This document shows, one piece after another, positions 19,755 to 40,803 of a DNA stretch of 64,000 bases. A program made the position numbers and the translations under genes. The notes under the pieces are model-generated. The model was given only the letters and a program-made list of their open reading frames with translations, ran no database searches and was not told where the DNA came from. Origin of the DNA: Ruminococcus sp. 210702-SL.1.03. GTDB taxonomy: Bacteria > Bacillota > Clostridia > Oscillospirales > Ruminococcaceae. The stretch's first letter is position 1. Each line of letters starts with the position of its first letter. The stretch covers positions 1-64,000 of the forward strand of contig NZ_JAJCLZ010000004.1 in the NCBI RefSeq assembly GCF_020559915.1. Reading direction: 5' to 3'.

Positions 19755-20180
19755 TCAAGTGCTTTTTTGCACTTTTTTTGATTTTTTTGAATTTGGGTAC
19801 TTTTTCACAAACATTCGTCTGCTTTTAGCTGATATTTTGTGCATAGATCTGACTGCCGGCTTAGCCGCTGCGCCAAAAACCGCCGCTGCCCCGCGCACGG
19901 CAAATCTGCCTATCGCGAAATGCCAGCCCGCCGCGCCGCCTATCATGCCCAGCAGCACGAATCCGCGCAGATAATTCGTCTGCGCCAGCGTGAATACAAA
20001 ATACACCGCGCCGAACATCAGTGTGTAAGTCAGGTCGCAGATCAGCCGCACCGCTGCAAAGTTTAGCAGTCGCGCCACTATCTGAAAAAGCCCGTATATT
20101 AGCCCCATAGCCGCGCCCGCCGTCACCGCCAGACCCAGTATGTCCAGCTCTGCCTGCGTGCCCAGCTGCATTGGCGTCAT
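19755..20180 (-). CDS. yabQ: Spore cortex protein YabQ-like
   Basis: A 141-residue membrane protein with four predicted helices (about residues 13-34, 43-62, 67-84, 94-104) and a basic C-terminal tail (KKYPNSKKSKKVQKST). The length, topology and position directly after yabP identify it as YabQ, which in Bacillus sits in the forespore outer membrane and is needed for cortex formation. It starts 12 nt after yabP ends. Confidence 0.78.
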   Translation of the reverse strand: MTPMQLGTQAELDILGLAVTAGAAMGLIYGLFQIVARLLNFAAVRLICDLTYTLMFGAVYFVFTLAQTNYLRGFVLLGMIGGAAGWHFAIGRFAVRGAAAVFGAAAKPAVRSMHKISAKSRRMFVKKYPNSKKSKKVQKST

Positions 20181-27553: not shown

Positions 27554-28090
27554 TTAGTTTTCAAAAATATTTTCGTAATCCTGCTGCGTAAATCTGTGGT
27601 AGGTTATCCCGCCAAGGTCGTTCGCAAGGCAGTATTTGTAAGCGTCCGGCTCGCCGTCGGGAAAATACGCCAGTACGTCAAATTCGTCGTCGTCCATATC
27701 TTCCAGTACGGTATTATCGCTGTACTTTTTGAATATAGCCTTAGCCTTTTCCATAGTGCAGCCCTCTTTCACCGCGGCTATGAACTCGGTGAGGAAAGCG
27801 CTCGCCTCGGTGTTCTCGTGTATCGCGCGCACGCTCTCGGCAGATACCACAACGCCTATCTTGTCCTCGAAAACGTTGCAGCTAAGACCGCTCAACACGC
27901 CGCTCTTGAAGGCCGAGATAGCCGCCGTCATCTCGCTCATGCTGAGGTCAGCGCCCGTCAGCAGGTTTAGCGACTCCAGCGGGTAGAAAAGCGTCACGGG
28001 GTTCGGCGTAAAGCCCAGCTTCAGCTGCGATTCTTTTATAGTGTCAACTATGTTTTTCTCAAGCGCTTTGAGGTTCGGTTTGCTGTTCAT
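27554..28090 (-). CDS. Uncharacterised Clostridia protein leading the tetrapyrrole operon (DUF3793/DUF3877-like)
   Basis: A 178-residue soluble protein from the ATG at 28090, which has AGGAGTG upstream; a GTG at 28099 is part of the ribosome site. The middle contains AISAFKSGVLSGLSCNVFED, and the end contains FDVLAYFPDGEPDAYKYC. I associate this loosely with small Clostridia DUF families but cannot name it firmly. It is the first gene after the operon promoter and lies 6 nt from hemA. Its constant position beside tetrapyrrole genes would suggest a role in regulation or metal/heme handling (inference). Confidence 0.65.
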   Translation of the reverse strand: MNSKPNLKALEKNIVDTIKESQLKLGFTPNPVTLFYPLESLNLLTGADLSMSEMTAAISAFKSGVLSGLSCNVFEDKIGVVVSAESVRAIHENTEASAFLTEFIAAVKEGCTMEKAKAIFKKYSDNTVLEDMDDDEFDVLAYFPDGEPDAYKYCLANDLGGITYHRFTQQDYENIFEN

Positions 28091-28138
28091 ATATATCACT
28101 CCTGTTACATCATTTCATATATTTCATACTATCTATAT

Positions 28139-28167
28139 ATAATATCACAAATAAACATAGTTGTCAA
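28139..28167 (-). promoter_or_regulatory. Promoter of the tetrapyrrole operon
   Basis: The minus strand has TTGACA (28162-28167), 17 bp, TATTAT (28139-28144), about 50 nt before the first gene. Confidence 0.7.
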
Positions 28168-28247
28168 TCGCTTACCGCATAAACTTGTTTCATGCGTTTC
28201 ATAAATTTAGCACACTAAATCATTAACATTTTATTCATCAAATGCCG

Positions 28248-28292
28248 TTGCAATATACTATATTTTGCAATATAATGTTCTGTATATTGCAA
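28248..28292 (+). promoter_or_regulatory. Three TTGCAATATA repeats upstream of the dehydrogenase gene
   Basis: TTGCAATATAC (28248-28258), TTGCAATATAA (28265-28275) and the inverse GTATATTGCAA (28282-28292). The outer two form an 11-bp inverted repeat. The middle copy contains a TATAAT. This looks like a cluster of operator sites on the promoter. Confidence 0.5.
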
Positions 28293-28337
28293 ATTGGGCG
28301 CTGAAATGCCCGTATTTCTTATGAAAAGAGTGGAACT

Positions 28338-29399
28338 ATGAATAATTACTGCATGACTCTGCCGAGTTACACTATCGGCGAGAGGGCTTACGAAGATATT
28401 TACCGCTTTTGCTCGCCTTTCGGCAAGACCGCTGTCATGATAGGCGGCAGAACTGCGCTTTCCGTTGCTTCCGAAAAGATAATCGCAAACTGCGGCGGTA
28501 TAAGCGTTTCTGCTAAGATATGGTACGGCGGTGAGTCCAGCTACGAAAATGTCGAGATACTCAGCGGCGTTGACGAAGTGAAGTCGGCTGATATGATCTT
28601 CGCGGTCGGCGGCGGCAAGGCGCTCGATACCTGCAAGTGCCTTTCCGATAAGCTCGGCAAGCCCGTGTTTACTTTCCCGACGGTCGCTTCAAACTGCGCC
28701 TGCTGTACCGCCGTCGCGATAATGTACCGCCCCGACGGCAGCTTTATAGAGCCGTATTTCTTCGAAAACGCCCCCGTGCACGCTTTTATCGACACTGATA
28801 TTATGTGCGAAGCGCCAGAAAAATATCTATGGGCTGGTATGGGCGATACTTACGCTAAATATTACGAATCGCAGATCTCGGCGCGCGGCGAAGAGCCCGA
28901 GCATTTCAAGGCGCTGGGGCTTGCGATGTCCTCTATGTGCAGCGAGCCGATATTCGCTCACGGCGTTTCCGCTTTCAGCGCGAACAAGTGCCATGTAAAT
29001 TCTGAGGATTTTAAAGAAACCGTCCTTGCGATAGCCGTTTCCACGGGCTTAGTTTCCATAATGCTCACCCGCGACCATACGCCCGATTACAACAGCGGTC
29101 TGGCGCACGCGGTGTTCTACGAGCTGACGACCATCGGCATAGAGGAAGAGCACCTGCACGGCGAGGTGGTAGCTTTCGGCACGCTCATCTGCCTGCTGTA
29201 TGACGGTCAGGTGGACGAATATATGCGCGTCCGCGAATTTAACGAGCGTGTTGGTCTGCCCACAGCCGTCAGCGACCTCGGTCTAGAGCCTGCGCAGCTC
29301 GACTCCCTCGCTGAGATGATAGCGGGTATGTCCGACGTTCGTCATTACCCCTACCCGATCGACCCCGAAAAGCTCAGAAGCGTTTTCGCAATGCTCTGA
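28338..29399 (+). CDS. Iron-containing alcohol dehydrogenase family protein
   Basis: A 353-residue protein of the glycerol dehydrogenase / dehydroquinate synthase-like superfamily. The nucleotide site is IFAVGGGKALDTCKCL, followed by FPTVASNCACCTAVAIMY. The metal-ligand positions are the Asp of GMGDTYAKYYES and the His residues of LAHAVFYEL and EEHLHGEVVAFGTL. The cysteine-rich ASNCACCT loop differs from the ATDAPCTG of the gene at 16856, so the substrate is probably different. A TrpXYZ-like importer operon follows after 41 nt. Confidence 0.82.
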   Translation: MNNYCMTLPSYTIGERAYEDIYRFCSPFGKTAVMIGGRTALSVASEKIIANCGGISVSAKIWYGGESSYENVEILSGVDEVKSADMIFAVGGGKALDTCKCLSDKLGKPVFTFPTVASNCACCTAVAIMYRPDGSFIEPYFFENAPVHAFIDTDIMCEAPEKYLWAGMGDTYAKYYESQISARGEEPEHFKALGLAMSSMCSEPIFAHGVSAFSANKCHVNSEDFKETVLAIAVSTGLVSIMLTRDHTPDYNSGLAHAVFYELTTIGIEEEHLHGEVVAFGTLICLLYDGQVDEYMRVREFNERVGLPTAVSDLGLEPAQLDSLAEMIAGMSDVRHYPYPIDPEKLRSVFAML

Positions 29400-29440
29400 T
29401 CTATATAATCTACAGTAATTTTTGATAGGAGAAATCTTCA

Positions 29441-30430
29441 ATGAAAAAAGGTATTTTGAAAAAGGCTGCCGCGATAATTATCGCCGCGGCTATCGGCATG
29501 GCCTCCGTTTCCTGCGGAAAAGGTTCTGATAAGGACACCGTTTACGTTGTAATGATGGTTGAAAACGGCGCTTTCGTTGATATGAAAGACGGCTTTATTC
29601 AAGAGCTTCGCGATAAGGGCTACTCTGAGGATAAGCTGGATATAGTTTACAAATGCGCTCAGGGCGACGCCACTAACCTTAATACGATAGTGCAGGAGGC
29701 TGTAAACGCCGAGCCTAAGGCGATTGCTACCATCGGCACACCCGCTTCGCAGGCGGTAGTCGGTATGAACAGCGATGTTCCGAACTTCTTCATCTCTGTT
29801 AGCGACCCCGTAAGCGCGGGTCTTATCAGCGATATGAATAAAGCCCCCGATAAGAACGCTACCGGTACTTCAAACTATATCCCGATAAACGATATTTTCG
29901 AGTTTGCCGATAAGCTCACCCCCGGCATACAGACCTACGGCATACTTTATAATACCGGCGAGGTAAACGCCGTGACCACCGCTCAGAACGCTATGAAGTA
30001 CCTCGATGAAAAGGGCATAAAGTACGTTGAAAAGACCGTTACCTCCGCAGGCGAGGTTCAGACCGCGGCAGAGTCGCTCGCTGGCAGCGTAGACGCTATC
30101 TTCGTTCCGAACGATTCTATTATCCAGTCGGCAATGCCGATAGTTTCGCAGGTAGCGCGCGATAATAAGATACCTGTTTACGGCTCCAGCGCTGTAATGG
30201 TAAACAGCGGTGCTTTCGCTACTAAGGCTATCAGCGATAAGAAGATAGGTGCTATCACCGCCGATAAGTTCATAGATTACCTTGAGGGCAAGGCTATAAA
30301 GGACATCAAGGCTGAGGTAGTAGACGCCGACGATATTGTCGTAAATTCCGACGCGGCGGCGGCTATCGGCGTTACCATTCCCGACGATGTCAAGAACGAA
30401 GCGACTATCGTAAAGGATTCTAACGGCTAA
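29441..30430 (+). CDS. ABC importer substrate-binding lipoprotein (TrpX-like)
   Basis: A 329-residue lipoprotein with lipobox VSCGKG after a hydrophobic signal. The body matches the ABC_sub_bind family (VVMMVENGAFVDMKDGFIQE, IGTPASQAV, FISVSDPVSAGL, IFVPNDSIIQSAMP). Together with the next two genes it forms a TrpXYZ-type system that usually imports tryptophan, tyrosine or related compounds. I see no T-box leader, so the substrate is uncertain. Confidence 0.85.
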   Translation: MKKGILKKAAAIIIAAAIGMASVSCGKGSDKDTVYVVMMVENGAFVDMKDGFIQELRDKGYSEDKLDIVYKCAQGDATNLNTIVQEAVNAEPKAIATIGTPASQAVVGMNSDVPNFFISVSDPVSAGLISDMNKAPDKNATGTSNYIPINDIFEFADKLTPGIQTYGILYNTGEVNAVTTAQNAMKYLDEKGIKYVEKTVTSAGEVQTAAESLAGSVDAIFVPNDSIIQSAMPIVSQVARDNKIPVYGSSAVMVNSGAFATKAISDKKIGAITADKFIDYLEGKAIKDIKAEVVDADDIVVNSDAAAAIGVTIPDDVKNEATIVKDSNG

Positions 30431-30443
30431 GGAGTATCTGCAC

Positions 30444-31340
30444 ATGAGCTTTATTTTCGGAACGCTCCAGCTCGGGCTTATCTACGGTCTGCTGGCTGTG
30501 GGCATCTATATCTCTTTCCGCGTGCTCAATATCCCTGACCTTACCGCCGAGGGCTCGTTTACTTTCGGGCTTGCGGTATCATCAGTAATGGCGGCGGGCG
30601 GTCACTCGTGGCTGGGCATACTCTGCGCGGCGCTCGCGGGCGCGGCGGCGGGCGCTGTAACGGCGCTTCTCCAGACCCGCCTAAAGATCCACCCCGTCCT
30701 CGCGGGAATACTCACCATGAGCGGGCTTTACTCGATAAATATGTACGTCATGGGCGAGCGCGCGAACGTTACCCTCATCGGCTGCGACACTATTTTCACA
30801 TGGTTCGCGGGACTTTTTCCTTCGGCGGATAAAAATGTGCTGAAACTTATCATCGCTGCCGCGGCGGCTGTTATCGGCGCGGCTCTCGCAATACTTTTCT
30901 TCCGCACACATCTGGGTCTTTGCGTTCGTGCGGCGGGCGATAACGAAACTATGGTGCGCGCTTCCTCGATAAACGTTGACCGCGTGAAGCTTATAGCCCT
31001 CGCCGTTTCAAACGCTTACATCGCGCTCTGCGGCGGAATAATCGCGCAGTATCAGTCATTTGCGGATATAAACTCGGGCGTGGGCATACTGGTAGTAGGT
31101 CTGGCTTCCGTGATAATCGGCGAAGTCATCGTTGGCAGGAGGGGAGTCACCGCGGGCGTTATCTCGGCAGTGGCAGGCTCGCTGGCGTACCGCATAATAA
31201 TAGCGCTTGCTACCCGCTACACCCTTCTGCCCGCGTATATGCTCAAGCTCATCTCGGCGGTGATAGTAGCGGCGGCGCTCTCAGTGCCCGCGATAAAGCA
31301 GTCTATCTCGCTGTACAAGACTAAGAGAGGCGGTGTGTGA
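30444..31340 (+). CDS. ABC importer permease (TrpY-like, BPD_transp_2)
   Basis: A 298-residue membrane protein with eight to nine hydrophobic segments. Family motifs include IPDLTAEGSFTFGLAVSSV near the N-terminus and GLASVIIGEVIVGRRGV. AAGGAG precedes the ATG, 13 nt after the binding-protein gene. It pairs with the ATPase that starts directly at its stop codon. Confidence 0.88.
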   Translation: MSFIFGTLQLGLIYGLLAVGIYISFRVLNIPDLTAEGSFTFGLAVSSVMAAGGHSWLGILCAALAGAAAGAVTALLQTRLKIHPVLAGILTMSGLYSINMYVMGERANVTLIGCDTIFTWFAGLFPSADKNVLKLIIAAAAAVIGAALAILFFRTHLGLCVRAAGDNETMVRASSINVDRVKLIALAVSNAYIALCGGIIAQYQSFADINSGVGILVVGLASVIIGEVIVGRRGVTAGVISAVAGSLAYRIIIALATRYTLLPAYMLKLISAVIVAAALSVPAIKQSISLYKTKRGGV

Positions 31341-32150
31341 ATGCTTAAAATAGAATCAGCCGTAAAGACGTTCTTTAAGGGTACGCCTAACGAGCATACC
31401 GCGCTCGACCACGTTTCCCTCTCGCTCGAGAACGGCGAATTCGTAACGCTGGTAGGCTCGAACGGCGCGGGAAAATCTACCCTCTTCAACGCGATATGCG
31501 GCAGCTTTATGCTCGACGGCGGCGCTGTTATGCTCGATGGCAAGGATATTACTTATCAGCCCGATTACCGCCGAGCCGCCGATATAGGCAGAGTTTTCCA
31601 AGACCCCATGAAAGGCACAGCGCCGAATCTCACTATCGAGGAAAACTTAGCACTTGCCTATTCGCGCAAAAAGAAGCACGCTTTCTCGCTTGCGGTGAAT
31701 AAGCGCGATATTGCCTACTTCCGCGAACGCTTAGCCGCTATGGATATGGGGCTTGAGGACAGAATGAAAACAAAAGTCGGTCTGCTTTCTGGCGGTCAGC
31801 GGCAGGTGGTAACGCTGCTGATGTGTACGCTCAATATGCCGAAGCTTCTGCTTCTCGACGAGCATACCGCCGCTCTCGACCCGCAGACCAGCGATAAGAT
31901 AATGAAGATCACCAACGATATAGTTAAGGAAAATAACCTTACAACGATGATGATAACGCATAATCTTAACGCAGCCCTGCGCACGGGTACGCGCACGGTG
32001 ATGATGGATTCGGGTAAGGTGATCCTAGACATCAGCGGCAGCGAGCGCGATGGTATGACGCTCAATGACCTGCTTGAAATGTACTCGCAGAAGTCTGATA
32101 AGCAGTTCGATAATGACAGAATGCTGCTTACAAAAGACCGCAGTGAATAA
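31341..32150 (+). CDS. ABC importer ATP-binding protein (TrpZ-like)
   Basis: A 269-residue ATPase. Walker A is GSNGAGKST, the Q-loop is VFQDPMKGT, the signature is LLSGGQRQVVTLL, and Walker B is LLLLDEHTAALD followed by the His switch MMITHNL. It completes the TrpXYZ-like importer. Confidence 0.92.
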   Translation: MLKIESAVKTFFKGTPNEHTALDHVSLSLENGEFVTLVGSNGAGKSTLFNAICGSFMLDGGAVMLDGKDITYQPDYRRAADIGRVFQDPMKGTAPNLTIEENLALAYSRKKKHAFSLAVNKRDIAYFRERLAAMDMGLEDRMKTKVGLLSGGQRQVVTLLMCTLNMPKLLLLDEHTAALDPQTSDKIMKITNDIVKENNLTTMMITHNLNAALRTGTRTVMMDSGKVILDISGSERDGMTLNDLLEMYSQKSDKQFDNDRMLLTKDRSE

Positions 32151-32163
32151 TTTTGCAATCTAA

Positions 32164-32201
32164 AAACGGCATAACTTGCTTCGGCGCAGGCTATGCCGTT
32201 T
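32164..32201 (+). terminator. Hairpin after the importer operon
   Basis: AAACGGCATA (32164-32173) pairs with TATGCCGTTT (32192-32201) across a small second stem. The T-run is weak, so termination efficiency is uncertain. Confidence 0.55.
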
Positions 32202-32221
32202 GCTGCGTTAATTGTTTGTTT

Positions 32222-32270
32222 ATAAAATAGTTACAAAAACACGCAAACTTTTTTAGCATAGTTTTAGTCT
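32222..32270 (+). promoter_or_regulatory. Putative autoregulated ECF-type promoter of the sensor sigma factor
   Basis: TTACAA (32231-32236), 8 nt, AAACTTTTT (32245-32253), then TCTTTA from 32268. The same block with the same internal distances occurs before the BspA/FN3 gene (34720-34768). AAAC and TCTnTA would be the -35 and -10 elements, 19 nt apart, in the ECF style. No TATAAT-type promoter with good spacing is seen between here and the start codon. Confidence 0.55.
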
Positions 32271-32355
32271 TTAATATTAGAACTATCTGCATTTTTATTA
32301 TACAAATTCTGTAATATAAATGGGGATATAAGAAATTAAAAGGGGTTTTTTGCAA

Positions 32356-34644
32356 ATGTCGCAGGAAAATATGACGGTATTGGATAGTGAAAAGGAAGAA
32401 AAAGTAACCGAAAGCGAAAAGATGATTGAGTGCCTAAAAAGCGGGGACGACGAAGCTTTCGGCAAATTTTACGAGAGCTATAAAGCGCCGCTTTACGATT
32501 TTCTTTCAAAACGGACTAAGCACACTCAGTACATAGAGGATATAATCTCGGAAACTTTCATGGCTGCCGTGAAAAATATCGACTCGCTGAGGGACGCGCA
32601 GAAATTCGAGCAGTGGCTAAAAGCGATCGCTGTCAACGAGATGTACGCCTATATCAAAAAGGAAAACAAACATTCCGAAAACAGAATGTCGGGCGATTAC
32701 AGCGAGATAGCTGAGGTAGTGGACGATGAAACTATAATGCTGCCCGAGGATTTCAGCGCCGATGAGGAGAAAAAGCAGCTTGTAGCCGACGCGGTCAATT
32801 CGCTCAGCGAAACTCAGCGCGAAGCTATATACTGCTACTACTATATGGGTATGTCGATCTCTGAGATAGCGCAGACTACCGGCGTTTCGGAAAACACGGT
32901 AAAGTCGCGTATGCTTCTCGCAAAAAAGTATCTGAAAAGACGGCTGGAGAAGCTCAGAAAGCAGGGCTATGTGTTCTCCGCTTTCCCGATCTCCGTGCTC
33001 TTTGTCGAGCTTGGCGATATGGTGAATGTCAGCTTTCTTACCACGGCTTCGGTGGCTTCGCCCTCTTCGGCAGGCTTTATCGGCGGGATATCGGTGGTAG
33101 GCGTTAGCGCGGCGGTGCTGATAGGCGTTACGCTGCTTTCAAATTTAAGCGATGATCTCGATATAGATAACACCCGCGGCGATAAAAAGCCTACCGACCA
33201 TAGCTCGAGCACCGACACCATGCCCGACCTTACCGACTCTATGGTGATAAATACTTCAAACAGCAGCTACCTTCTCTCGATGACCGATACCAGCAGCGAT
33301 ATTGCCGTTACCGCGCTGAACAGTTCGGCAAGCAGCGGAGCGGGCGCTAACACCAATACCAACAACAATAACAACACTAACAATAATACAAATAACAACG
33401 GCGATCAAACTGACTATAACGATAATAACAGTGATAGTGATACTGCCTCAAATGATGATTGGGATGTAATACCTATAGTAAACGAAAATGGCGAGCAGGT
33501 GCCAAAAAGATATTTTAGCCCTGATAAGCTAAGACCATTTTCATTTTTTTATGTTATTTATGATGTCAGATATAAAGATGGAAAGCTTGCTGTAAAGTAT
33601 TCATTTGAGCCGTTTAAGTCAGGTCAAACTATTTATCTCGAACATAGCTTTAGCTTTTGTATATATGACTCTGGTTCTGATCCGGAGCATAGGATCTATC
33701 AAACACCGTATTCGACCACTTACGATGTAGATGGCTATAATACAGCACTGGCTATGTTTACTGTGCCATCGTCTATGTCTGTTGAAGAAGCCGCAAATCA
33801 TCTTACATTCTTGGGCACGTCCGAGTATTACAGCGGTGATGATTACGGCTACTACCAAAAACAAGGCGATTGTATTTATCCTTCTTATATTAAAGTGCCT
33901 TTAGACGGCAATTTTGTTGCAAATGAAAAACTGAGCTTTTTCCCCGTATATGGTGTATGGACGAAAGAGATCAGCTCTGATTCCACCGGATACAGTAGAG
34001 CAAGACCGGTATTCTCTAATTATGCGTCTGAAATAAAAATTGTTACGCTTGATAACTGCAAATATTTGCACTTTACTGATGGAGTTTTGTATAATACTTC
34101 TGAACATGATACCGAAGATCCAAACCGTAAAGCTATCATATGGGCTCCCGAAAACTTTAACGTCGATTCTCTTTCGCTCGAAGATAATGTAACGGTGTTC
34201 GAGAAGTATGCTCTCGACAGACTGCATTCTACTGATCTTAACGTCGGAAGAAATGTTATGCTCTTGGAATATTTGCCCGATAATTTTCAGAATATCACGG
34301 TTAAACTGGGCTCAAATGAAGACGGCAAATATTTTGATGTTAACGAGCATAGTGATTATAATGAACTATGTATAGAAACTCTCCGCATTCATAACATGAA
34401 CGAGTTAAAGACATTGACTATAACATCTGATGTCGGAAATCTTTGCAATTTACAGATACAGGATTGTAAAAACCTTGAAACTATCACAATAGATAAAGAT
34501 GTTGAGATGTATCAATATGGCTTTTTCCCTATTATGAGAAATTGTGATAACCTTGTTTTTCGTGTCTACAGAGATTCAAGTGCAGCAAAAGTGCTGGAAG
34601 AGTGGGCATCAGGACTCGACCTCAAATACGAATACATCGACTAA
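32356..34644 (+). CDS. Membrane-anchored ECF sigma factor with large extracellular domain
   Basis: A 762-residue single protein; the start at ATG 32356 has AGGGG upstream. Residues about 25-95 are sigma region 2 (FGKFYESYKAPLYDFLSKR, YIEDIISETFMAAVKNI). Residues about 140-198 are sigma region 4 (LSETQREAIYCYYYMGMSIS, EIAQTTGVSENTVKSRMLLA). An amphipathic stretch and one membrane helix follow (GFIGGISVVGVSAAVLIGVTLL, about 240-261). Outside the membrane is a Ser/Thr/Asn-rich linker with a poly-Asn tract. A domain of about 380 residues follows, with beta-rich modules and an LRR-like end (LETITIDKDVEMYQYGF). The sigma half appears intact. This is a one-component signal transducer: an outer sensor joined to a sigma factor, with no separate anti-sigma. 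Related surface proteins follow downstream. Confidence 0.85.
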   Translation: MSQENMTVLDSEKEEKVTESEKMIECLKSGDDEAFGKFYESYKAPLYDFLSKRTKHTQYIEDIISETFMAAVKNIDSLRDAQKFEQWLKAIAVNEMYAYIKKENKHSENRMSGDYSEIAEVVDDETIMLPEDFSADEEKKQLVADAVNSLSETQREAIYCYYYMGMSISEIAQTTGVSENTVKSRMLLAKKYLKRRLEKLRKQGYVFSAFPISVLFVELGDMVNVSFLTTASVASPSSAGFIGGISVVGVSAAVLIGVTLLSNLSDDLDIDNTRGDKKPTDHSSSTDTMPDLTDSMVINTSNSSYLLSMTDTSSDIAVTALNSSASSGAGANTNTNNNNNTNNNTNNNGDQTDYNDNNSDSDTASNDDWDVIPIVNENGEQVPKRYFSPDKLRPFSFFYVIYDVRYKDGKLAVKYSFEPFKSGQTIYLEHSFSFCIYDSGSDPEHRIYQTPYSTTYDVDGYNTALAMFTVPSSMSVEEAANHLTFLGTSEYYSGDDYGYYQKQGDCIYPSYIKVPLDGNFVANEKLSFFPVYGVWTKEISSDSTGYSRARPVFSNYASEIKIVTLDNCKYLHFTDGVLYNTSEHDTEDPNRKAIIWAPENFNVDSLSLEDNVTVFEKYALDRLHSTDLNVGRNVMLLEYLPDNFQNITVKLGSNEDGKYFDVNEHSDYNELCIETLRIHNMNELKTLTITSDVGNLCNLQIQDCKNLETITIDKDVEMYQYGFFPIMRNCDNLVFRVYRDSSAAKVLEEWASGLDLKYEYID

Positions 34645-34657
34645 CATCTATCTTTTA

Positions 34658-34697
34658 AACCGCCTTTTGGTATAACACCCTAAAGGCGGTTTTTTTA
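34658..34697 (+). terminator. Terminator of the sensor sigma gene
   Basis: AACCGCCTTT (34658-34667), loop, AAAGGCGGTT (34682-34691), then seven T. Confidence 0.9.
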
Positions 34698-34719
34698 TTC
34701 GCAAAATCGCAGAAACTTA

Positions 34720-34768
34720 ATAAACTATTTACAAGTTAATCAAAACTTTTTGCGCTTTTTCTCCCTCT
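34720..34768 (+). promoter_or_regulatory. Putative sigma-dependent promoter of the BspA/FN3 gene
   Basis: TTACAA (34729-34734), 8 nt, AAACTTTTT (34743-34751), then TCTATA from 34766. Distances are identical to the block before the sigma gene. It lies 70-120 nt before the start codon. Confidence 0.55.
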
Positions 34769-34840
34769 ATATATGTAGAACGGTTTTTAATAATCCGTTA
34801 AATTTACATGATATGGCAATAAATTGTAGGAGGAAAAATT

Positions 34841-36916
34841 ATGAAGAAAATCATTGCAAGTGTAGTGGCTGTAACTATCGCGTTCGGCGGACTGGCTCTG
34901 CTTGCGGCGGAAAGCGGGCTTTCATTCTCCGCGGCTATTTCGGCTAGCGCGGACGAATCTACCGCGGCTGATTTCAATTACACCGTGCTCTCTGACGGCA
35001 CTCTCAAGATCACGAAGTATAAGGGCAAGGCTAGTAACGTAGTTATCCCCGAAACTATCGACGGCAAAAAGGTGACCGTCATCGGTACGCGCGCTTTCTA
35101 CGATTATACGAGAAAAAACAGCCTTACTATCCCCTCAACTCTGAAAACTATCGAGGGTGATGGCTTTCATTACTTCTCGTTCGACAGCGTATTTATCGGC
35201 AGTCTGAAACAGTGGTGCGAGCTTGGTAATAACCCCGAGTGCGGCACTATCTTTATAAACGATGTCAAGCTGACAGGCGCGGTAACTATCCCGAACGGAA
35301 CTGAATACATAGGCGACAGCGCTTTTAATAACAGAGGTGAGATCACCAGCGTTTCTATACCCGACAGCGTTACCAGCATCGGCTATCATGCTTTTGCGAA
35401 ATGCGGCAACCTGACGAGCGTGAAAATGTCCAACAAGGTGCAGACGATAGGCGAGGGCGCATTCAGCAACTGCGAGAAGCTCACCGCTATAACGCTTCCG
35501 AATACGCTTACTGATATGGGGAGGGACGCATTTCTCAATTGCTATAAGCTTGAAAAAGCCAACATTCCCTCAAAAGTTAAGGTGCTCAAAGCGAGTACGT
35601 TTGAGAGCTGCGGTTCTCTTAAAAACGTTACACTTTCCGAGGGTCTTACCGATATAGAGAAAGAGGCGTTTTACAGCTGCTACTCTCTGAGCAGCATAAA
35701 GTTCCCGAGCACCCTTAAAACTATCGGTTACCACTCTTTTTACCGCACAAGCTTAACAAGAGCAGAACTCCCCAGCGGTCTTACTACTATCGGACAAGAA
35801 GCGTTCTATATGTGCGGTTCGCTACAGAGCGTATTCGTTCCCAAGAGCGTTGATTCTATCGGTATGTGGGCATTTAGTGCCGGATCAGATGATTCTAAGC
35901 TTTTCTATGAAGGCTCGGAAGCTTCGTGGATAAAGATAGGCGGCAGTAAGGCTTTTCCCGATGGCTGTGAATTTAATGTAGTTTACAATTACGACCCCAA
36001 CCACAAGCACAGCTACACCACTAAGATAACTAAGCAGGCTACCTGCACCGCCGCCGGCGAAAAGGTTCTCACCTGCTCCATCTGCGGCGACAGCTATACT
36101 CAAACTATCCCCGCTAAGGGCCACAGCTACGGCGCAGGCAAGGTCACTAAACAGCCTACCTGCACGGCTACAGGCACAAGAGAATACACCTGCTCCTCCT
36201 GCGGAAGCAAAAAGACCGAAACTATAAAGGCTAAGGGTCATAGCTATAAGACCAGCGTGGTAGCGCCTACATATGAAGCGCAGGGCTATACTCTGCACAA
36301 GTGCTCTTCCTGCGGCAACAGCTACAAGGATAACTACACGGCTAAAAAGACCGTAGGCAAGGCTGCGGGCAACGGCTTTACCTGCACCGCAACTTCTGTA
36401 AACTTCGGCTGGAACAAGGTCGCGAACGCAAGCGGTTATAAGATCTACGCTTACAATACCTCTACCAAAAAGTGGAAGCTCGTTACTACCGTTTCCGCCA
36501 ATACCTTTACATACAAGCAGAGCGGATTAAAGTCTGGCACTACTTACAAGTATAAGGTCAAGGCTTTCGTTAAGGAAAACGGCAAGAAATACTACGGCGA
36601 AAGCTCTGACACCATCGTTACCACCACCAAGCCCGCCAAGGTGACTATCAAGTCCGCTTCCGTATCAAAGACCGCTGTAAAGCTCAAGTGGGGCGCAGTA
36701 AACGGCGCTAACGGCTACCGCGTGTACAGATACGATTCCGCTTCCAAGAAGTGGGTCACCGTATCTACCGTAAAGAATGGCAAGACTGCTTCTTATAAGG
36801 AAAGCAAGCTGAAGTCAGGCACATCGTACAAGTACAAGGTAAAGGCGTACCGCAAAGTAGGCGGCAATACCTACTGGGGAACAGCCAGCGCAGTAAAGAC
36901 CTACAAGACCAAGTAA
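34841..36916 (+). CDS. Secreted BspA-type leucine-rich-repeat protein with FN3 domains
   Basis: A 691-residue exported protein. The signal peptide covers residues 1-38 (IIASVVAVTIAFGGLALLAA, ends ASA-DE). Residues about 45-370 hold BspA/LRR_5 repeats of the type LTAITLPNTLTDMGRDAFLN. Three Cys-containing repeats follow (HSYTTKITKQATCTAAGEK, CSICGDSY; about 385-490). Two fibronectin type III domains complete the protein (about 500-595 and 600-691), each ending near YKVKAYRKVGGNTYWG. Such proteins mediate surface contact with substrate or host. AGGAGG precedes the ATG. It is the likely main target of the upstream sensor sigma factor. Confidence 0.88.
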   Translation: MKKIIASVVAVTIAFGGLALLAAESGLSFSAAISASADESTAADFNYTVLSDGTLKITKYKGKASNVVIPETIDGKKVTVIGTRAFYDYTRKNSLTIPSTLKTIEGDGFHYFSFDSVFIGSLKQWCELGNNPECGTIFINDVKLTGAVTIPNGTEYIGDSAFNNRGEITSVSIPDSVTSIGYHAFAKCGNLTSVKMSNKVQTIGEGAFSNCEKLTAITLPNTLTDMGRDAFLNCYKLEKANIPSKVKVLKASTFESCGSLKNVTLSEGLTDIEKEAFYSCYSLSSIKFPSTLKTIGYHSFYRTSLTRAELPSGLTTIGQEAFYMCGSLQSVFVPKSVDSIGMWAFSAGSDDSKLFYEGSEASWIKIGGSKAFPDGCEFNVVYNYDPNHKHSYTTKITKQATCTAAGEKVLTCSICGDSYTQTIPAKGHSYGAGKVTKQPTCTATGTREYTCSSCGSKKTETIKAKGHSYKTSVVAPTYEAQGYTLHKCSSCGNSYKDNYTAKKTVGKAAGNGFTCTATSVNFGWNKVANASGYKIYAYNTSTKKWKLVTTVSANTFTYKQSGLKSGTTYKYKVKAFVKENGKKYYGESSDTIVTTTKPAKVTIKSASVSKTAVKLKWGAVNGANGYRVYRYDSASKKWVTVSTVKNGKTASYKESKLKSGTSYKYKVKAYRKVGGNTYWGTASAVKTYKTK

Positions 36917-36935
36917 TTAGAATGGAGAAAAGATC

Positions 36936-37670
36936 ATGAGTAAAAGAACAACAGCATTTATAGCAGCTGCCATAATGGCATTATCCCTCGCGGCTTGCGG
37001 CGAAACCTCGGGCGAGAGCAAATCCGACAAATCGGCAGTAAATTCCACTGCTGAAACCACCGCCGCCGCCGATAACGCAGAAGAGGACTCCGCCGCCGAA
37101 ACGACTACAACAACTACCACCGCTGAAAGCGCGGCAGAAAGCGCGGAAACTTCGTCGGCTGAGGAAGCGACAAGTGTTGCAGGCATGAGCATGACTTTGC
37201 CCGAGATCGACACTTTCTTTTCGGATATTGACGGAAAAACTTTAGATGAATTAAAAGCATACATGGACGAGAAATTTCCTAACACACAATACGAAGAAAG
37301 CATCAACGCATACATGATTGGCGGCGAACAGGTGGATAATTATTATTGGCATTTTCCCGAAGGCTTGGACATCGAAGGGGAAAAATTCGATTACATTGGA
37401 GTATCTTATTTAAGTAATAAACTAGACAATGCTTCGTTCGCCAAACAAGAAGGCAACGAGATCAATAAGGCCATCGGAAAGCCTGACAGTGAGTATAATT
37501 TAGAGAACAAGGCTAGAGAGTATGGGTATGAACAGATCTTTGATAATGATATTCAACAATTCTATCGTCAGATGAACTGCGGGCGCGTATTTATCGATAC
37601 ATTGAATGAAACTGGCACGCTCAGTATCACTCACTCTTATTATCAGCAGGAGATAGATAGCAATGAATAA
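36936..37670 (+). CDS. Lipoprotein, first of a tandem duplicated pair
   Basis: A 244-residue lipoprotein. The signal ends in the lipobox LSLAAC. A low-complexity Thr/Ala/Glu/Ser linker follows, then MTLPEIDTFFSDIDGKTLDE and a C-terminal domain of about 130 residues with no family that I recognise. It starts 19 nt after the BspA gene and may be co-transcribed. It shares near-identical DNA with the next gene over the first ~100 codons; the C-terminal halves differ. Confidence 0.75.
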   Translation: MSKRTTAFIAAAIMALSLAACGETSGESKSDKSAVNSTAETTAAADNAEEDSAAETTTTTTTAESAAESAETSSAEEATSVAGMSMTLPEIDTFFSDIDGKTLDELKAYMDEKFPNTQYEESINAYMIGGEQVDNYYWHFPEGLDIEGEKFDYIGVSYLSNKLDNASFAKQEGNEINKAIGKPDSEYNLENKAREYGYEQIFDNDIQQFYRQMNCGRVFIDTLNETGTLSITHSYYQQEIDSNE

Positions 37671-38376
37671 AAGAACAACAGCATTTATAGCCGCCGCAGT
37701 AATGGCACTATCCCTCGCGGCTTGCGGCGAAACATCGGGCGAGAGCAAGTCTGACAAATCGGCAGTTTATTCCACTGCTGAAACCACCGCCGCTAACGAT
37801 AACGCCGAAGCAAATACCAATGACGAGGAGGACTCCGCCGCCGAAACTACTACAACAACCGCCGCCGAATCTAGCGCGGCAGAAAGCGCTGAAACTTCGT
37901 CGGCTGAGGAAGCGACAAGCGTTGCAGGCATGAGCATGACTTTGCCCGAGATCGACACTTTCTTTTCGGATATTGACGGAAAGACATTAGATGAAGTAAA
38001 AGCCGCCGTTGAAAGCAAATTCCAAGTCGGCGAGTGCGAAGAGAAAATCGACGCATTCAGACTGCCCGACGGAACAGACTTGACCGCGATACAGGTCGAT
38101 ATGTATACTTGGAATTTCTCCTCGGGCTTTAATATCGAAGACGTATCGTTCGACAGCCTTGGCGTAAGCGTGGCAAACGGCGCGGTATACAGCTTTTCGT
38201 TCTACAAAAGTGATGCCAGCTTTTCTGACGAGTCAAGCTTGCAGAAAAAAGCTGATTCATACGGATATGAAAAAACATCGAATGGATATTCTGAATACTA
38301 TATCATGAACTGCGGTGAGGTGACTATCGAAAGATATACCGATGATACGTTGATCGTCAGCCGCGATTATCAGTAA
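37663..38376 (+). CDS. Lipoprotein, second of a tandem duplicated pair
   Basis: A 237-residue paralog of the preceding gene. The first ~30 residues, the acidic Thr-rich linker and the MTLPEIDTFFSDIDGKTLDE block are almost identical. The C-terminal domain (about residues 110-237) has diverged but keeps the same outline, with MNCGEVTIERY matching MNCGRVFIDTL. The start overlaps the upstream stop by 8 nt, and AGGAG precedes it. Function unknown. Confidence 0.75.
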   Translation: MNKRTTAFIAAAVMALSLAACGETSGESKSDKSAVYSTAETTAANDNAEANTNDEEDSAAETTTTTAAESSAAESAETSSAEEATSVAGMSMTLPEIDTFFSDIDGKTLDEVKAAVESKFQVGECEEKIDAFRLPDGTDLTAIQVDMYTWNFSSGFNIEDVSFDSLGVSVANGAVYSFSFYKSDASFSDESSLQKKADSYGYEKTSNGYSEYYIMNCGEVTIERYTDDTLIVSRDYQ

Positions 38377-38434
38377 ACATATACAAAAAGATTTCTTCAT
38401 AGATCTCCTAGTATAGTTGCGAAAGCAATTTCAG

Positions 38435-38475
38435 AAACAGCAGGCGTGCACAAAGCATACCTGCTGTTTTTGTAT
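38435..38475 (+). terminator. Terminator after the lipoprotein pair
   Basis: AAACAGCAGG (38435-38444), loop, CCTGCTGTTT (38460-38469), T-rich tail. Confidence 0.85.
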
Positions 38476-38514
38476 TGTACGCCCTTAAATTTCTCTTAAA
38501 AAATCTGTATTTTG

Positions 38515-38543
38515 TTGACGTTTGATTTTATGTATGCTATAAT
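38515..38543 (+). promoter_or_regulatory. Promoter of the exporter operon
   Basis: TTGACG (38515-38520), 17 bp, TATAAT (38538-38543). Confidence 0.7.
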
Positions 38544-38611
38544 GAATGTGCGGGGGGCGTACTACGCCCGCGCGATAGAAAGAGCAAAAGCTTTTTAAGG
38601 AGGAACAAAAA

Positions 38612-40105
38612 ATGGCAAAAGGTAAAAAGATAGCTGTCACGCTGGTGGCGGTGGTGGTAGCCGCAGCGGTAGGTGTTACAGCTTACAGACTTTGGAAAAA
38701 GAAAGACTCTTCCGCTTCCAAAGGAAAGGTTTTTGTAACGCAGGTCTCCGACGTGAATACGGCTGCGGGCGTTAGCCTCAGCGGCAGTAAATTTTCAGGC
38801 GTTATCGAGGCTCAGAAAACGGTAGATTATAAATACGACAGCTCGAAAACGGTGAAATCACTCGCGGTAAAAGAAGGCGACGAGGTAAAAAAAGGCGACC
38901 TGCTTTTTACATATGATGTAGAAGCCATGCAGCTAGAGCTCGATCAGGGCAAGATAGAAGTAGAGCGCATGAAGAACGAGGTAGAGACCAATAAACTCCA
39001 GTTACAACAACTCGAGGAAGAGAAGAAAAAGACCCCGCAGGACGGTCAGACCTCGCTCAATACGCAGATACTCTCGCTGCAAAGCGACGTTGCAAAGGCT
39101 GAGTACGATATAAAGACCAAAAAGGCTGAGAATAAAAAGATAAAGAAATCTATAAAGAACGCCAAGGTATACTCAGAAGTTGACGGTACTGTAAAATCTA
39201 CCCTCGACCTTGAGAATATCCAAAACGCCGAATCGAACGTTATGGTAAGCATTTCCCGCGGCGGCAGCTACCTTGTAAAGGGCACTGTAAACGAGCAGAT
39301 GATAAATAATATCTACGTCGATATGCCCGTAGTTATCCGCTCGCGCGTTGACGAAAATACCACATGGACAGGCAAGATCTCTTCTATAGAGACCAGCCCG
39401 CAGAAAGATAATTCCGATATATACTCCGACGGCGACAGCGACAGCTCATCTAAATCTTCTAAGTACGCATTTTATGTAGAGCCCGACTCGCTCGACGGAC
39501 TCATGCTCGGTCAGCATATCCTTATCGAGCCTGACCTTGGCGAGGAAAGCGGCATAGATAAAAAGGGCATTTGGCTTTACAGCGATTATGTGTTCACCGA
39601 AAAGGGCAAGAGCTACGTTTGGACGCAGGATAAGAATGAAAAGATAGAAAAGCGCGAAGTAAAGCTCGGTCAAAAAGACGAGAATATGGGCGATGTAGAG
39701 ATACTTTCGGGTCTGAAAAAGGACGACTATATTGCTTACCCCTCTAAGAATATCAAGGAGGGCATGGCTGTTACTACCAACGCGGAAGACCCTGATCTTA
39801 TCGAGGACGATACAGATAACGATGCTGACGGCGATGCTGGTAACGATGGCGATGATGAAATCATGCCGATGGACGGCGATACCGATGGCGATAACGCCGA
39901 CGATCCTTTCGCAGGCTACACGATAGACGATGACGGCAATTTCGTTGACTCAGAGGGCAACGTGCTCTCTGACGAGGAAGTAGAAGCGATGATGGAAGAG
40001 GCTTACGGCTCGCTCGACGCCGACGCTGACGACGCCGATATAAATACCGCAAATGAAGCAGATATGGACACCGCAGGTGCGCAGGCACTGCCCGCAGATG
40101 AATAA
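38612..40105 (+). CDS. Membrane-fusion adaptor of a MacAB-like exporter, first copy
   Basis: A 497-residue HlyD/MacA-type subunit. One N-terminal membrane helix (IAVTLVAVVVAAAVGVTAY) is followed by a lipoyl-like half (VKSLAVKEGDEVKKGDLLFT). A coiled-coil hairpin (VERMKNEVETNKLQLQQLEE) and a beta-barrel part come next. The last ~100 residues are a very acidic Asp-rich tail (DNDADGDAGNDGDDE) that adaptors usually lack. AAGGAGG precedes the ATG. First gene of a four-gene operon. Confidence 0.85.
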   Translation: MAKGKKIAVTLVAVVVAAAVGVTAYRLWKKKDSSASKGKVFVTQVSDVNTAAGVSLSGSKFSGVIEAQKTVDYKYDSSKTVKSLAVKEGDEVKKGDLLFTYDVEAMQLELDQGKIEVERMKNEVETNKLQLQQLEEEKKKTPQDGQTSLNTQILSLQSDVAKAEYDIKTKKAENKKIKKSIKNAKVYSEVDGTVKSTLDLENIQNAESNVMVSISRGGSYLVKGTVNEQMINNIYVDMPVVIRSRVDENTTWTGKISSIETSPQKDNSDIYSDGDSDSSSKSSKYAFYVEPDSLDGLMLGQHILIEPDLGEESGIDKKGIWLYSDYVFTEKGKSYVWTQDKNEKIEKREVKLGQKDENMGDVEILSGLKKDDYIAYPSKNIKEGMAVTTNAEDPDLIEDDTDNDADGDAGNDGDDEIMPMDGDTDGDNADDPFAGYTIDDDGNFVDSEGNVLSDEEVEAMMEEAYGSLDADADDADINTANEADMDTAGAQALPADE

Positions 40106-40119
40106 AGGCGGTGGAAAAT

Positions 40120-40803
40120 ATGCTGTTGCAGTTAAAAGATATAGATAAAGATTATATGCAGGATAAACTGCCCGTGCCGGTTCTAAAAAAGATAAATTTC
40201 AATGTCAGCGACGGCGAATATGTCGCGATAATGGGGCCTTCCGGCTCGGGAAAATCCACCATGATGAACATTATCGGCTGCCTGGATAAACAGACTGCGG
40301 GCGAATTTTTATTCGACGGTACAGATATAGCGCAGTGCAGCGATAAACAGCTTTCTATAATAAGGAACAAAAAGATAGGCTTTGTATTTCAGAATTTTAA
40401 CCTCATGCCCCGCCAGAGCGCAGTGGAAAATGTAGAACTTCCCCTGCTGTACGCGGGCGTGAAAAAGAGCGAGCGCAGAAAGCGCGCGAAAGAAGCTCTC
40501 GTTCGCGTAGGCCTTGAAGAGAGAATGTATTTCAAGCCCACGCAGCTTTCTGGCGGACAGAAACAGCGCGTTGCGATAGCTAGAGCGATAGTAAATAAGC
40601 CCCGTCTGCTTCTCGCCGATGAGCCTACCGGCGCGCTCGATACAAAATCGGGCGACCAGGTAATGGAGCTTTTTAAGGAACTGAACGATGAAGGAGTAAC
40701 AATAGTAATGATAACCCACGAACCCGAGATAGCTCAGTGCGCGAAGCGGATAGTATATATCCGCGACGGTGAGCTTTTCGCCAGAGAGGGGGAGTCGCTT
40801 TGA
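40120..40803 (+). CDS. ABC exporter ATPase (MacB/LolD-like)
   Basis: A 227-residue ATPase. Walker A is GPSGSGKST, the signature is LSGGQKQRVAIARAI, Walker B is LLLADEPTGALD, and the His switch is MITHEPEIA. I use the ATG at 40120 because AAAGGCGG precedes it at a normal distance; the GTG at 40111 overlaps that site. It energises the FtsX-like permease two genes downstream. Confidence 0.93.
   Translation: MLLQLKDIDKDYMQDKLPVPVLKKINFNVSDGEYVAIMGPSGSGKSTMMNIIGCLDKQTAGEFLFDGTDIAQCSDKQLSIIRNKKIGFVFQNFNLMPRQSAVENVELPLLYAGVKKSERRKRAKEALVRVGLEERMYFKPTQLSGGQKQRVAIARAIVNKPRLLLADEPTGALDTKSGDQVMELFKELNDEGVTIVMITHEPEIAQCAKRIVYIRDGELFAREGESL

Follow-up and report, generated by a model that had tools for sequence, protein, structure and literature searches.

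A predicted membrane-spanning ECF sigma factor fusion in Ruminococcus and the promoter-like element that it shares with an adjacent surface-protein gene

How might a sigma factor be controlled when it is made in one piece with a membrane helix and a large outer domain, and which genes would it serve? This question is raised by a gene at positions 32356 to 34644 (forward strand) of a 64,000-nucleotide stretch, hereafter the window, of contig NZ_JAJCLZ010000004.1 of Ruminococcus sp. 210702-SL.1.03. Its 762-residue product joins an extracytoplasmic function (ECF) sigma factor to a predicted membrane helix and an outer domain, and the next gene encodes a bspA-type protein with leucine-rich repeats (LRR). 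We consider it probable that the fusion is a one-protein receptor sigma factor, which would be cut free from the membrane on a signal and would activate both its own gene and bspA.

The fusion protein, its parts and its relatives

The reading frame of the fusion gene runs from ATG to stop without interruption over 762 codons, with an in-frame TTG at 32350, two codons 5' of the ATG, as an alternative start. Pfam searches placed sigma region 2 at residues 38–104 (32467 to 32667; Sigma70_r2, E 1.4e-11) and sigma region 4 at residues 141–193 (32776 to 32934; Sigma70_r4_2, PF08281, E 7.6e-14), both exceeding the Pfam cut-off, and found no further sigma region in the protein, which also scores 93.8 bits against the NCBIfam sigma70-ECF superfamily (cut-off 42.9). 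With regions 2 and 4 and no other sigma region, the fusion protein is an ECF sigma factor. It continues for some 560 residues past the sigma part. The top 19-residue hydropathy window, residues 242–260 (mean 2.2), falls within the membrane helix predicted at residues 240–261 (33073 to 33138), and a weaker hydrophobic stretch (hydropathy 1.5) lies at residues 205–228. Sequence and the profile of GC content at third codon positions (GC3) delimit an Asn/Ser/Thr-rich linker behind the helix (residues 262–365, 33139 to 33450, with poly-Asn at 332–348), while relatives, models and fold comparison mark out an outer domain, predicted to be extracytoplasmic, at residues 366–762 (33451 to 34641). The intact frame, the Pfam matches and the hydropathy profile together bear out the original prediction, made from the sequence of the window, of a single frame with sigma regions 2 and 4, a helix at residues 240–261, a poly-Asn linker and an outer domain.

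The same prediction held that no anti-sigma gene is adjacent, and none adjoins the fusion: the gene just 5' encodes an ATP-binding cassette (ABC) ATPase and the gene 3' encodes the LRR_5/fn3 protein bspA. The fusion has the layout of an ECF sigma factor with a regulatory extension, in which the extension stands in place of an anti-sigma factor. Residues 194–240 hold neither Cys nor His, and at E <= 1 there was no Pfam match in the fusion to zinc-finger families, to LRR_5 or to the FecR-type anti-sigma domain, which is presumably the type fused in the one-protein system IutY. LRR-like segments had been proposed for the C-terminus. A model of the outer domain aligned residues ~570–762 mostly with LRR proteins, some of them cell-surface LRR proteins of gut bacteria, and the final ~190 residues are predicted to be LRR-like in fold. 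We rejected a reading of the outer domain as a simple BspA repeat, given the lack of an LRR_5 match. The first ~150 residues of the domain received no fold assignment from the model comparison, and sigma structures alone were among the best 50 matches listed for the full-length model. A DNA repeat search of positions 20000–50000 did not turn up the fusion gene, or any section of it, a second time.

In a protein search with the fusion, 386 relatives fell within E <= 1e-3, and the top 120 of them were listed. Among these, the clusters P0001 and P0002, with 87 and 123 member sequences, are likewise 762 residues long and 97–98% identical to the fusion over 100%, and P0005–P0007 are 48–69% identical over 98–100%. 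We then drew a genus sample of 29 genomes around the genome of relative L002 (Ruminococcus sp.); 25 of the 29 contained relatives, with 63 matches in all, and 56 of the 63 lay within open frames of 350–1207 residues. For 55 of these 56 long-frame relatives the flanks were taken and frames called, and with the window they form an analysed set of 56 proteins, 54 of which have a hydrophobic segment after the sigma part, so the predicted architecture does recur elsewhere in the genus. In a draw from the wider family, 24 of 247 genomes had a match at E <= 1e-20, with at most four candidates scored per genome. Named relatives include Blautia and Ruminococcus bromii proteins that are labelled just 'sigma-70 family RNA polymerase sigma factor'. 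Pattern scans yielded no relatives of the fusion among 81 matches in viral contigs or among 291 matches in a first contig scan, and two loci with relatives among 137 matches in a second contig scan.

Some relatives have unusual arrangements. At L078 two divergently oriented fusion genes lie close to a soluble ECF gene, and at L001 (2–982) the 3' part of a further gene, which encodes an Asn-rich linker and LRR_5 repeats, lies 1.5 kb 5' of the fusion and is possibly a second fusion in tandem. The relatives P0121 and P0122 are shortened, share an end point after the linker and read like a shifted frame, and the L059 fusion is divided over two frames; these short and split forms may reflect either phase variation, by on-off frameshifting, or sequencing error.

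The two halves of the protein are conserved to very different degrees. The window fusion and P0006 are 97% identical in the first 195 residues and 31% identical in the outer part, and P0008–P0010, which are 90–95% identical in the first 195 residues and have the helix and linker in common, differ in their outer domains, that of P0010 carrying LRR_5. DNA divergence at fourfold sites (K4) was compared between the sigma half and the outer half in nine pairs. Two orthologous control pairs gave equal values in both halves (0.38/0.36 twice), and six of the nine pairs were more divergent in the outer half, most markedly L060/L067 (0.37 in the sigma half versus 2.12 in the outer half) and L082/L086, from one genome (0.33 versus 0.90); L059/L063 had the opposite trend, 0.64 versus 0.38, over very few sites. 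The base composition of the window fusion gene also shifts around residues 345–360, GC3 being 0.50–0.68 up to residue ~360 and 0.23–0.43 from there on; for comparison, the other genes of the window average 0.61, and GC3 is 0.35 or less in 4 of 224 background windows. Family-wide the drop in GC3 into the outer domain is modest (mean 0.07, in the same direction in 35 of 48). We read the half-specific divergence together with the GC3 shift as module exchange at the linker. The outer domains vary extremely and few match known families. A search with residues 370–762 returned five proteins, all of them sigma fusions, though its reach was limited: it missed even P0006 and P0007, which have related outer parts.

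Between region 4 and the helix there is a conserved hydrophobic segment, the 'AVP' segment (residues 205–220, 32968 to 33015). Position 211 is Pro, with hydrophobic residues around it, in 55 of the 56 rows of alignment A3, across the classes of outer domain; in the wider alignment A6, which includes Lachnospiraceae-type relatives, the column holds Pro in 30 of 86 rows, the motif being sharper in the Ruminococcus set. The segment could serve as an inhibitor built into the protein or as an element next to the membrane.

One class of outer domain is an FtsX-type permease, which is present in seven of the 56 A3 members: L060 (5414–8767, the second gene), L067, L072, L074, L076, L079 and L085 (assigned by length). 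These fusions are 1117–1201 residues long, join the sigma factor directly to the permease and would, as predicted from their domains, each combine transporter and sigma factor in one protein. The permease fusions of L072, L076 and L079 each overlap at their end with an ATPase-like gene, and ABC_tran was detected in 7 of the 50 genes that lie next 3' of a fusion. At L061, L066, L073, L075 and L083 a large permease of this type has a gene of its own beside a shorter fusion.

Promoter-like elements shared with neighbouring genes

The gene proposed as the target of the fusion lies at 34841 to 36916 on the same strand and encodes a bspA-type protein of 691 residues with a signal-peptide-like start, LRR_5 repeats (Pfam E 3.4e-64) and fibronectin III (fn3, E 2.5e-10). 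When the intergenic stretches 5' of the fusion and 5' of bspA were compared, TTACAA-N8-AAACTTTTT-N14-TCT-N7-TAGAAC was found in register in both. The copy before the fusion gene spans 53 nucleotides (32231 to 32283, forward strand), with a -35-like AAACTTTTT at 32245, a -10-like GTCT with its TCT at 32268, and TAGAAC at 32278; in the copy before bspA (34729 to 34781, forward strand) the -35-like part is at 34743, TCT at 34766 and TAGAAC at 34776. The ECF promoter consensus consists of AAC, about 17 bases and GTCT, and the layout of the element is ECF-like. Its core, AAACTTTTT-N24-TAGAAC, has exactly two sites in the 64 kb and none in 100 shuffles, and the long form of the element still has two sites in the window at up to three mismatches. 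Because the core pattern was picked after being noticed, a fairer figure is the best 60-nucleotide ungapped match of the two intergenic stretches, 37 of 60, a value also attained in 6 of 1000 simulated pairs. When positions 28000–40500 were scanned for sigma-70 promoters, 26 sites emerged versus 16.9 expected, none of which overlaps either copy. These comparisons show, at the level of sequence, that the fusion gene and bspA share a promoter-like element, and its restriction within the window to these two positions strengthens the earlier suggestion that bspA is the target. The companion suggestion, that sensor and target may bind a common ligand, is a conjecture.

Two further features lie near this pair of genes. 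A stem followed by a T run was seen by eye right after the fusion gene, from 34657; the terminator scan omits it because its loop is longer than the limit of the scan. Directly 3' of bspA are overlapping tandem lipoprotein-like genes (36936–37670 and 37663–38376), whose first halves are 90–92% alike in DNA and which have no Pfam match.

Relatives of the fusion carry versions of an ECF-type promoter. The family pattern AAC[CT]-N15-18-[ACG]TC[TA]-N5-7-[TC]AGA lies 5' of 20 of 55 fusions versus 7 of 468 other genes. These seven comprise a duplicate record of a counted fusion, the bspA gene of the window, genes at L057 and L068 (two genes and one gene 5' of the fusion, respectively), LRR genes immediately 3' of the fusion at L089 and L090, and a gene at L082 that is the single case unconnected to a fusion. 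Other versions are confined to certain clades. In the L052/L053/L058 clade AAAACC-N17-ATCTAA is common to the fusion and an adjacent dockerin gene, and in three whole genomes AAAACCTTTT-N13-ATCTAA, with up to one mismatch, has seven sites, all 5' of a fusion or of the adjacent dockerin gene, the reversed pattern having none. TATAACC-N15-CGTCTAA has 13 exact sites in the 29 genomes, all 5' of fusions (five genomes), and none when reversed. The pattern GGGAATTWTCCG-N11-TCTRTTRTATGCA, with up to three mismatches, has 12 sites in the 29 genomes and none when reversed; seven are 5' of fusions (one, at L093, inside an over-long frame call) and two are 5' of LRR_5 and CWB2 genes that adjoin fusions. 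LRR proteins are encoded by 8 of 101 genes at ±1 of fusions versus 3 of 416 further off, the eight representing about four clades. The promoter version differs between sigma clades, as would be expected if each fusion read a promoter of its own, and the best account of these distributions is that a fusion would read its own promoter and that of the neighbouring surface gene. The window fits this account.

Several of these loci deserve separate mention. L054, L055, L056 and G005:C10:306389-306681 have three to five tandem ECF-type promoters, about 66 nucleotides apart, 5' of a single fusion, and all five exact TATAACC-N15-CGTCTAA sites of genome G005 are in one such array. The GGGAATTWTCCG-N11-TCTRTTRTATGCA (GGGAAT-type) site at L139 is 5' of sigma-less membrane/outer-domain copies, and that at L144 is at the start of an unassigned frame. 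At L143 (1430–1536) a GGGAAT-type promoter precedes a remnant of 29 codons that starts, over its first 20 residues, like the LRR_5 and CWB2 genes beside fusions; the remnant is likely a decayed target gene. Sigma-less proteins that resemble the outer parts of fusions are encoded at L094 (6835–7668), L139 (1488–2357 and 2287–3036) and L082 (9363–10595). They adjoin a fusion or, at L139, were judged by eye to share its promoter type, and a possible role for them is that of decoy receptors. Between promoter and fusion start, L060, L061, L066, L073, L075 and L080 have a conserved frame of ~40 codons, beginning ME(L/M)NELI or similar (by eye), which may encode a small partner protein.

Proposed holding and release of the sigma half

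In the mechanism that we propose, the hydrophobic segment would span the membrane with the sigma part inside, and the outer domain would sense some signal. The sigma half would be held inactive, perhaps via the conserved 'AVP' segment, until intramembrane cleavage by an M50 (RseP-like) protease in the Gly/Ala-rich helix released it, as for IutY, and the freed sigma factor would recognise the shared element 5' of the fusion and of bspA. Release by cleavage is favoured because IutY is proteolysed, because ECF48, ECF52 and ECF53 are expected to be activated likewise, and because M50 proteases were found in all five of the relatives' genomes tested, though these enzymes are near-universal (14 of 14 control genomes). 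We put intramembrane cleavage at about even chances. Better supported is the broader claim, in which one protein acts as a receptor sigma factor that regulates itself and has bspA as its target.

Several observations weigh against this proposal. The AlphaFold model leaves the membrane segment unmodelled (predicted local distance difference test score, pLDDT, about 20) and builds the 'AVP' helix, residues 212–222, at low confidence; inhibition and release of the sigma half are inferred, and the promoter role is a prediction from DNA. The uniqueness of the window element is established within 64 kb, and all promoter patterns were derived from the loci on which they were then tested. Since related loci are not independent, Fisher p-values overstate the associations. 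The full family motif occurs in 6 of 26 sigma clusters, some of the others having other versions, and a bare -35/-10 pattern is far less specific (31 of 55 fusions versus 74 of 468 other genes). With one mismatch TATAACC-N15-CGTCTAA brings in matches to the reversed pattern too, for which reason only exact sites were counted, and 3 of the 12 GGGAAT-type sites, those at L139, L143 and L144, lie elsewhere than before fusions and their neighbours. The FtsX-fused cluster has one TAACC...CGTC site (L072), and no element common to fusion and neighbour was found in it.

It is possible, though we think it unlikely, that the fusion works while tethered, an outside ligand altering the sigma half so that RNA polymerase is recruited at the membrane by the uncut protein. 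No cleavage motif was identified in the fusion, and for the permease fusions of the family a conformational signal across the membrane would be natural. A membrane-fixed sigma factor must, however, reach its promoter there. Helix-weakening residues are expected in substrates of intramembrane proteases, and such residues are common in the predicted helix, where Gly occupies position 257 in 48 of 55 members and Pro occupies position 259 in 31 of 56. IutY, the nearest case that has been studied, undergoes cleavage by Prc and RseP (PMC8999054).

A somewhat smaller likelihood attaches to the shared element being read by another sigma factor or regulator, with the fusion as just another member of its regulon. 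Soluble ECF factors are also present in the relatives, and the view of the organism of the window is limited to 64 kb, but the promoter version tracks the sigma clade and, genome-wide, is almost confined to the fusion and its neighbour. We regard it as improbable that the outer part serves chiefly for anchoring or adhesion, takes no part in signalling, and leaves sigma activity to be governed by synthesis and turnover. The extreme variability of the outer domains, few of them of known family, and the natural shortened versions P0121 and P0122 would suit such a role; against it, outer domains are maintained as long open frames throughout the family, and one class of them is a transporter permease with an overlapping ABC-type ATPase gene in at least three cases. 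The base composition shift inside the gene could suggest that a frameshift or assembly error had joined two genes, a danger pointed out with the original prediction. There is next to no chance of this, since the clusters P0001 and P0002 are equally long at 97–98% identity and many relatives have the same layout.

Extending the receptor sigma factor to the whole family, we see an even chance that these proteins form a set of plug-in receptors in gut Clostridia, in which a near-constant sigma-membrane module would be combined with changing outer domains, whether LRR-like, orphan or a whole FtsX-type ABC permease, each as a self-contained circuit with a private promoter and one or two surface-protein genes, and with sigma-less copies as possible decoys. 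If this is true, sensing, membrane passage and promoter choice are united in one exchangeable protein with the adjacent surface gene as a built-in reporter, which would give a simple route to what gut Ruminococcus sense at their surface and would explain how new sensors are wired in through the swap of a single module. The fusions would also offer compact one-gene sensors for engineering and a testable case of the holding and release of a membrane-bound sigma factor.

Known systems with a similar layout

The original prediction overstated its case in presenting the tethered design as an isolated one. The literature already describes ECF factors that carry regulatory extensions, in some cases with membrane helices (PMC8999054), and among them are ECF262 (model SFB89493.1, Ruminococcus albus) and ECF288 (Blautia producta), which Table 2 of that source enters with regulatory extensions, no anti-sigma factor and the mechanism 'Others'. 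Like the fusion, both are extension-bearing ECF factors of the same or related bacteria, a comparison that extends to the Table 2 entry (PMC8999054). IutY (ECF243, Pseudomonas putida) likewise unites a sigma factor and a membrane-bound regulator in one protein and is the one case for which this source speaks of an experimental characterisation of proteolytic activation (by Prc and RseP), ECF48, ECF52 and ECF53 being expected to follow (PMC8999054). IutY has a fused anti-sigma factor and serves Gram-negative iron-starvation cell-surface signalling (PMC8999054), whereas no such domain was matched in the window fusion.

The nearest domain layout is that of SCO4117 of Streptomyces coelicolor, an ECF52 protein, which, as also in ECF48 and ECF53, has a sigma factor, a membrane region, a low-complexity linker and an outer domain in one protein (PMC5826349). 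Its outer domain is carbohydrate-binding, its autoregulation is putative, and release by an uncharacterised protease has been suggested (PMC5826349). ECF52 is described there as having a zinc-finger domain and as restricted to Actinobacteria (PMC5826349), whereas the window fusion has no zinc-finger match and a different outer domain. The SCO4117 regulon is broad, with 29 genes (PMC5826349), whereas the sites in relatives of the fusion are local.

In Clostridium thermocellum, where RseP cuts RsgI anti-sigma factors within the membrane helix (PMC12203970), the SigI/RsgI systems likewise form many paralogous sigma circuits that have their own sensors and control surface-exposed machinery. Their sensor is on a separate anti-sigma factor, RsgI, whereas the window fusion is a single polypeptide with no RsgI-type neighbour. 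SigI, moreover, is not an ECF sigma factor. Pro-sigmaK is a sigma precursor cut by the M50 membrane protease SpoIVFB; its pro-part is N-terminal and it has no outer sensor domain. The pro-sigmaK/SpoIVFB complex (8vjl) is among the fold matches of the full-length fusion model.

By titles and the openings of abstracts, with the main ECF classification (Casas-Pastor 2021; Pinto 2019) outside the scope, we found no account of swappable outer modules combined with private shared promoters and permease fusions. The ECF factor with a regulatory extension is a kind already known, and what appears to be new in the Ruminococcus proteins is the swappable outer modules, the private shared promoters and the permease fusions, the last of which would be, as far as we have found, the first transporter to serve as the sensor of its own sigma factor.

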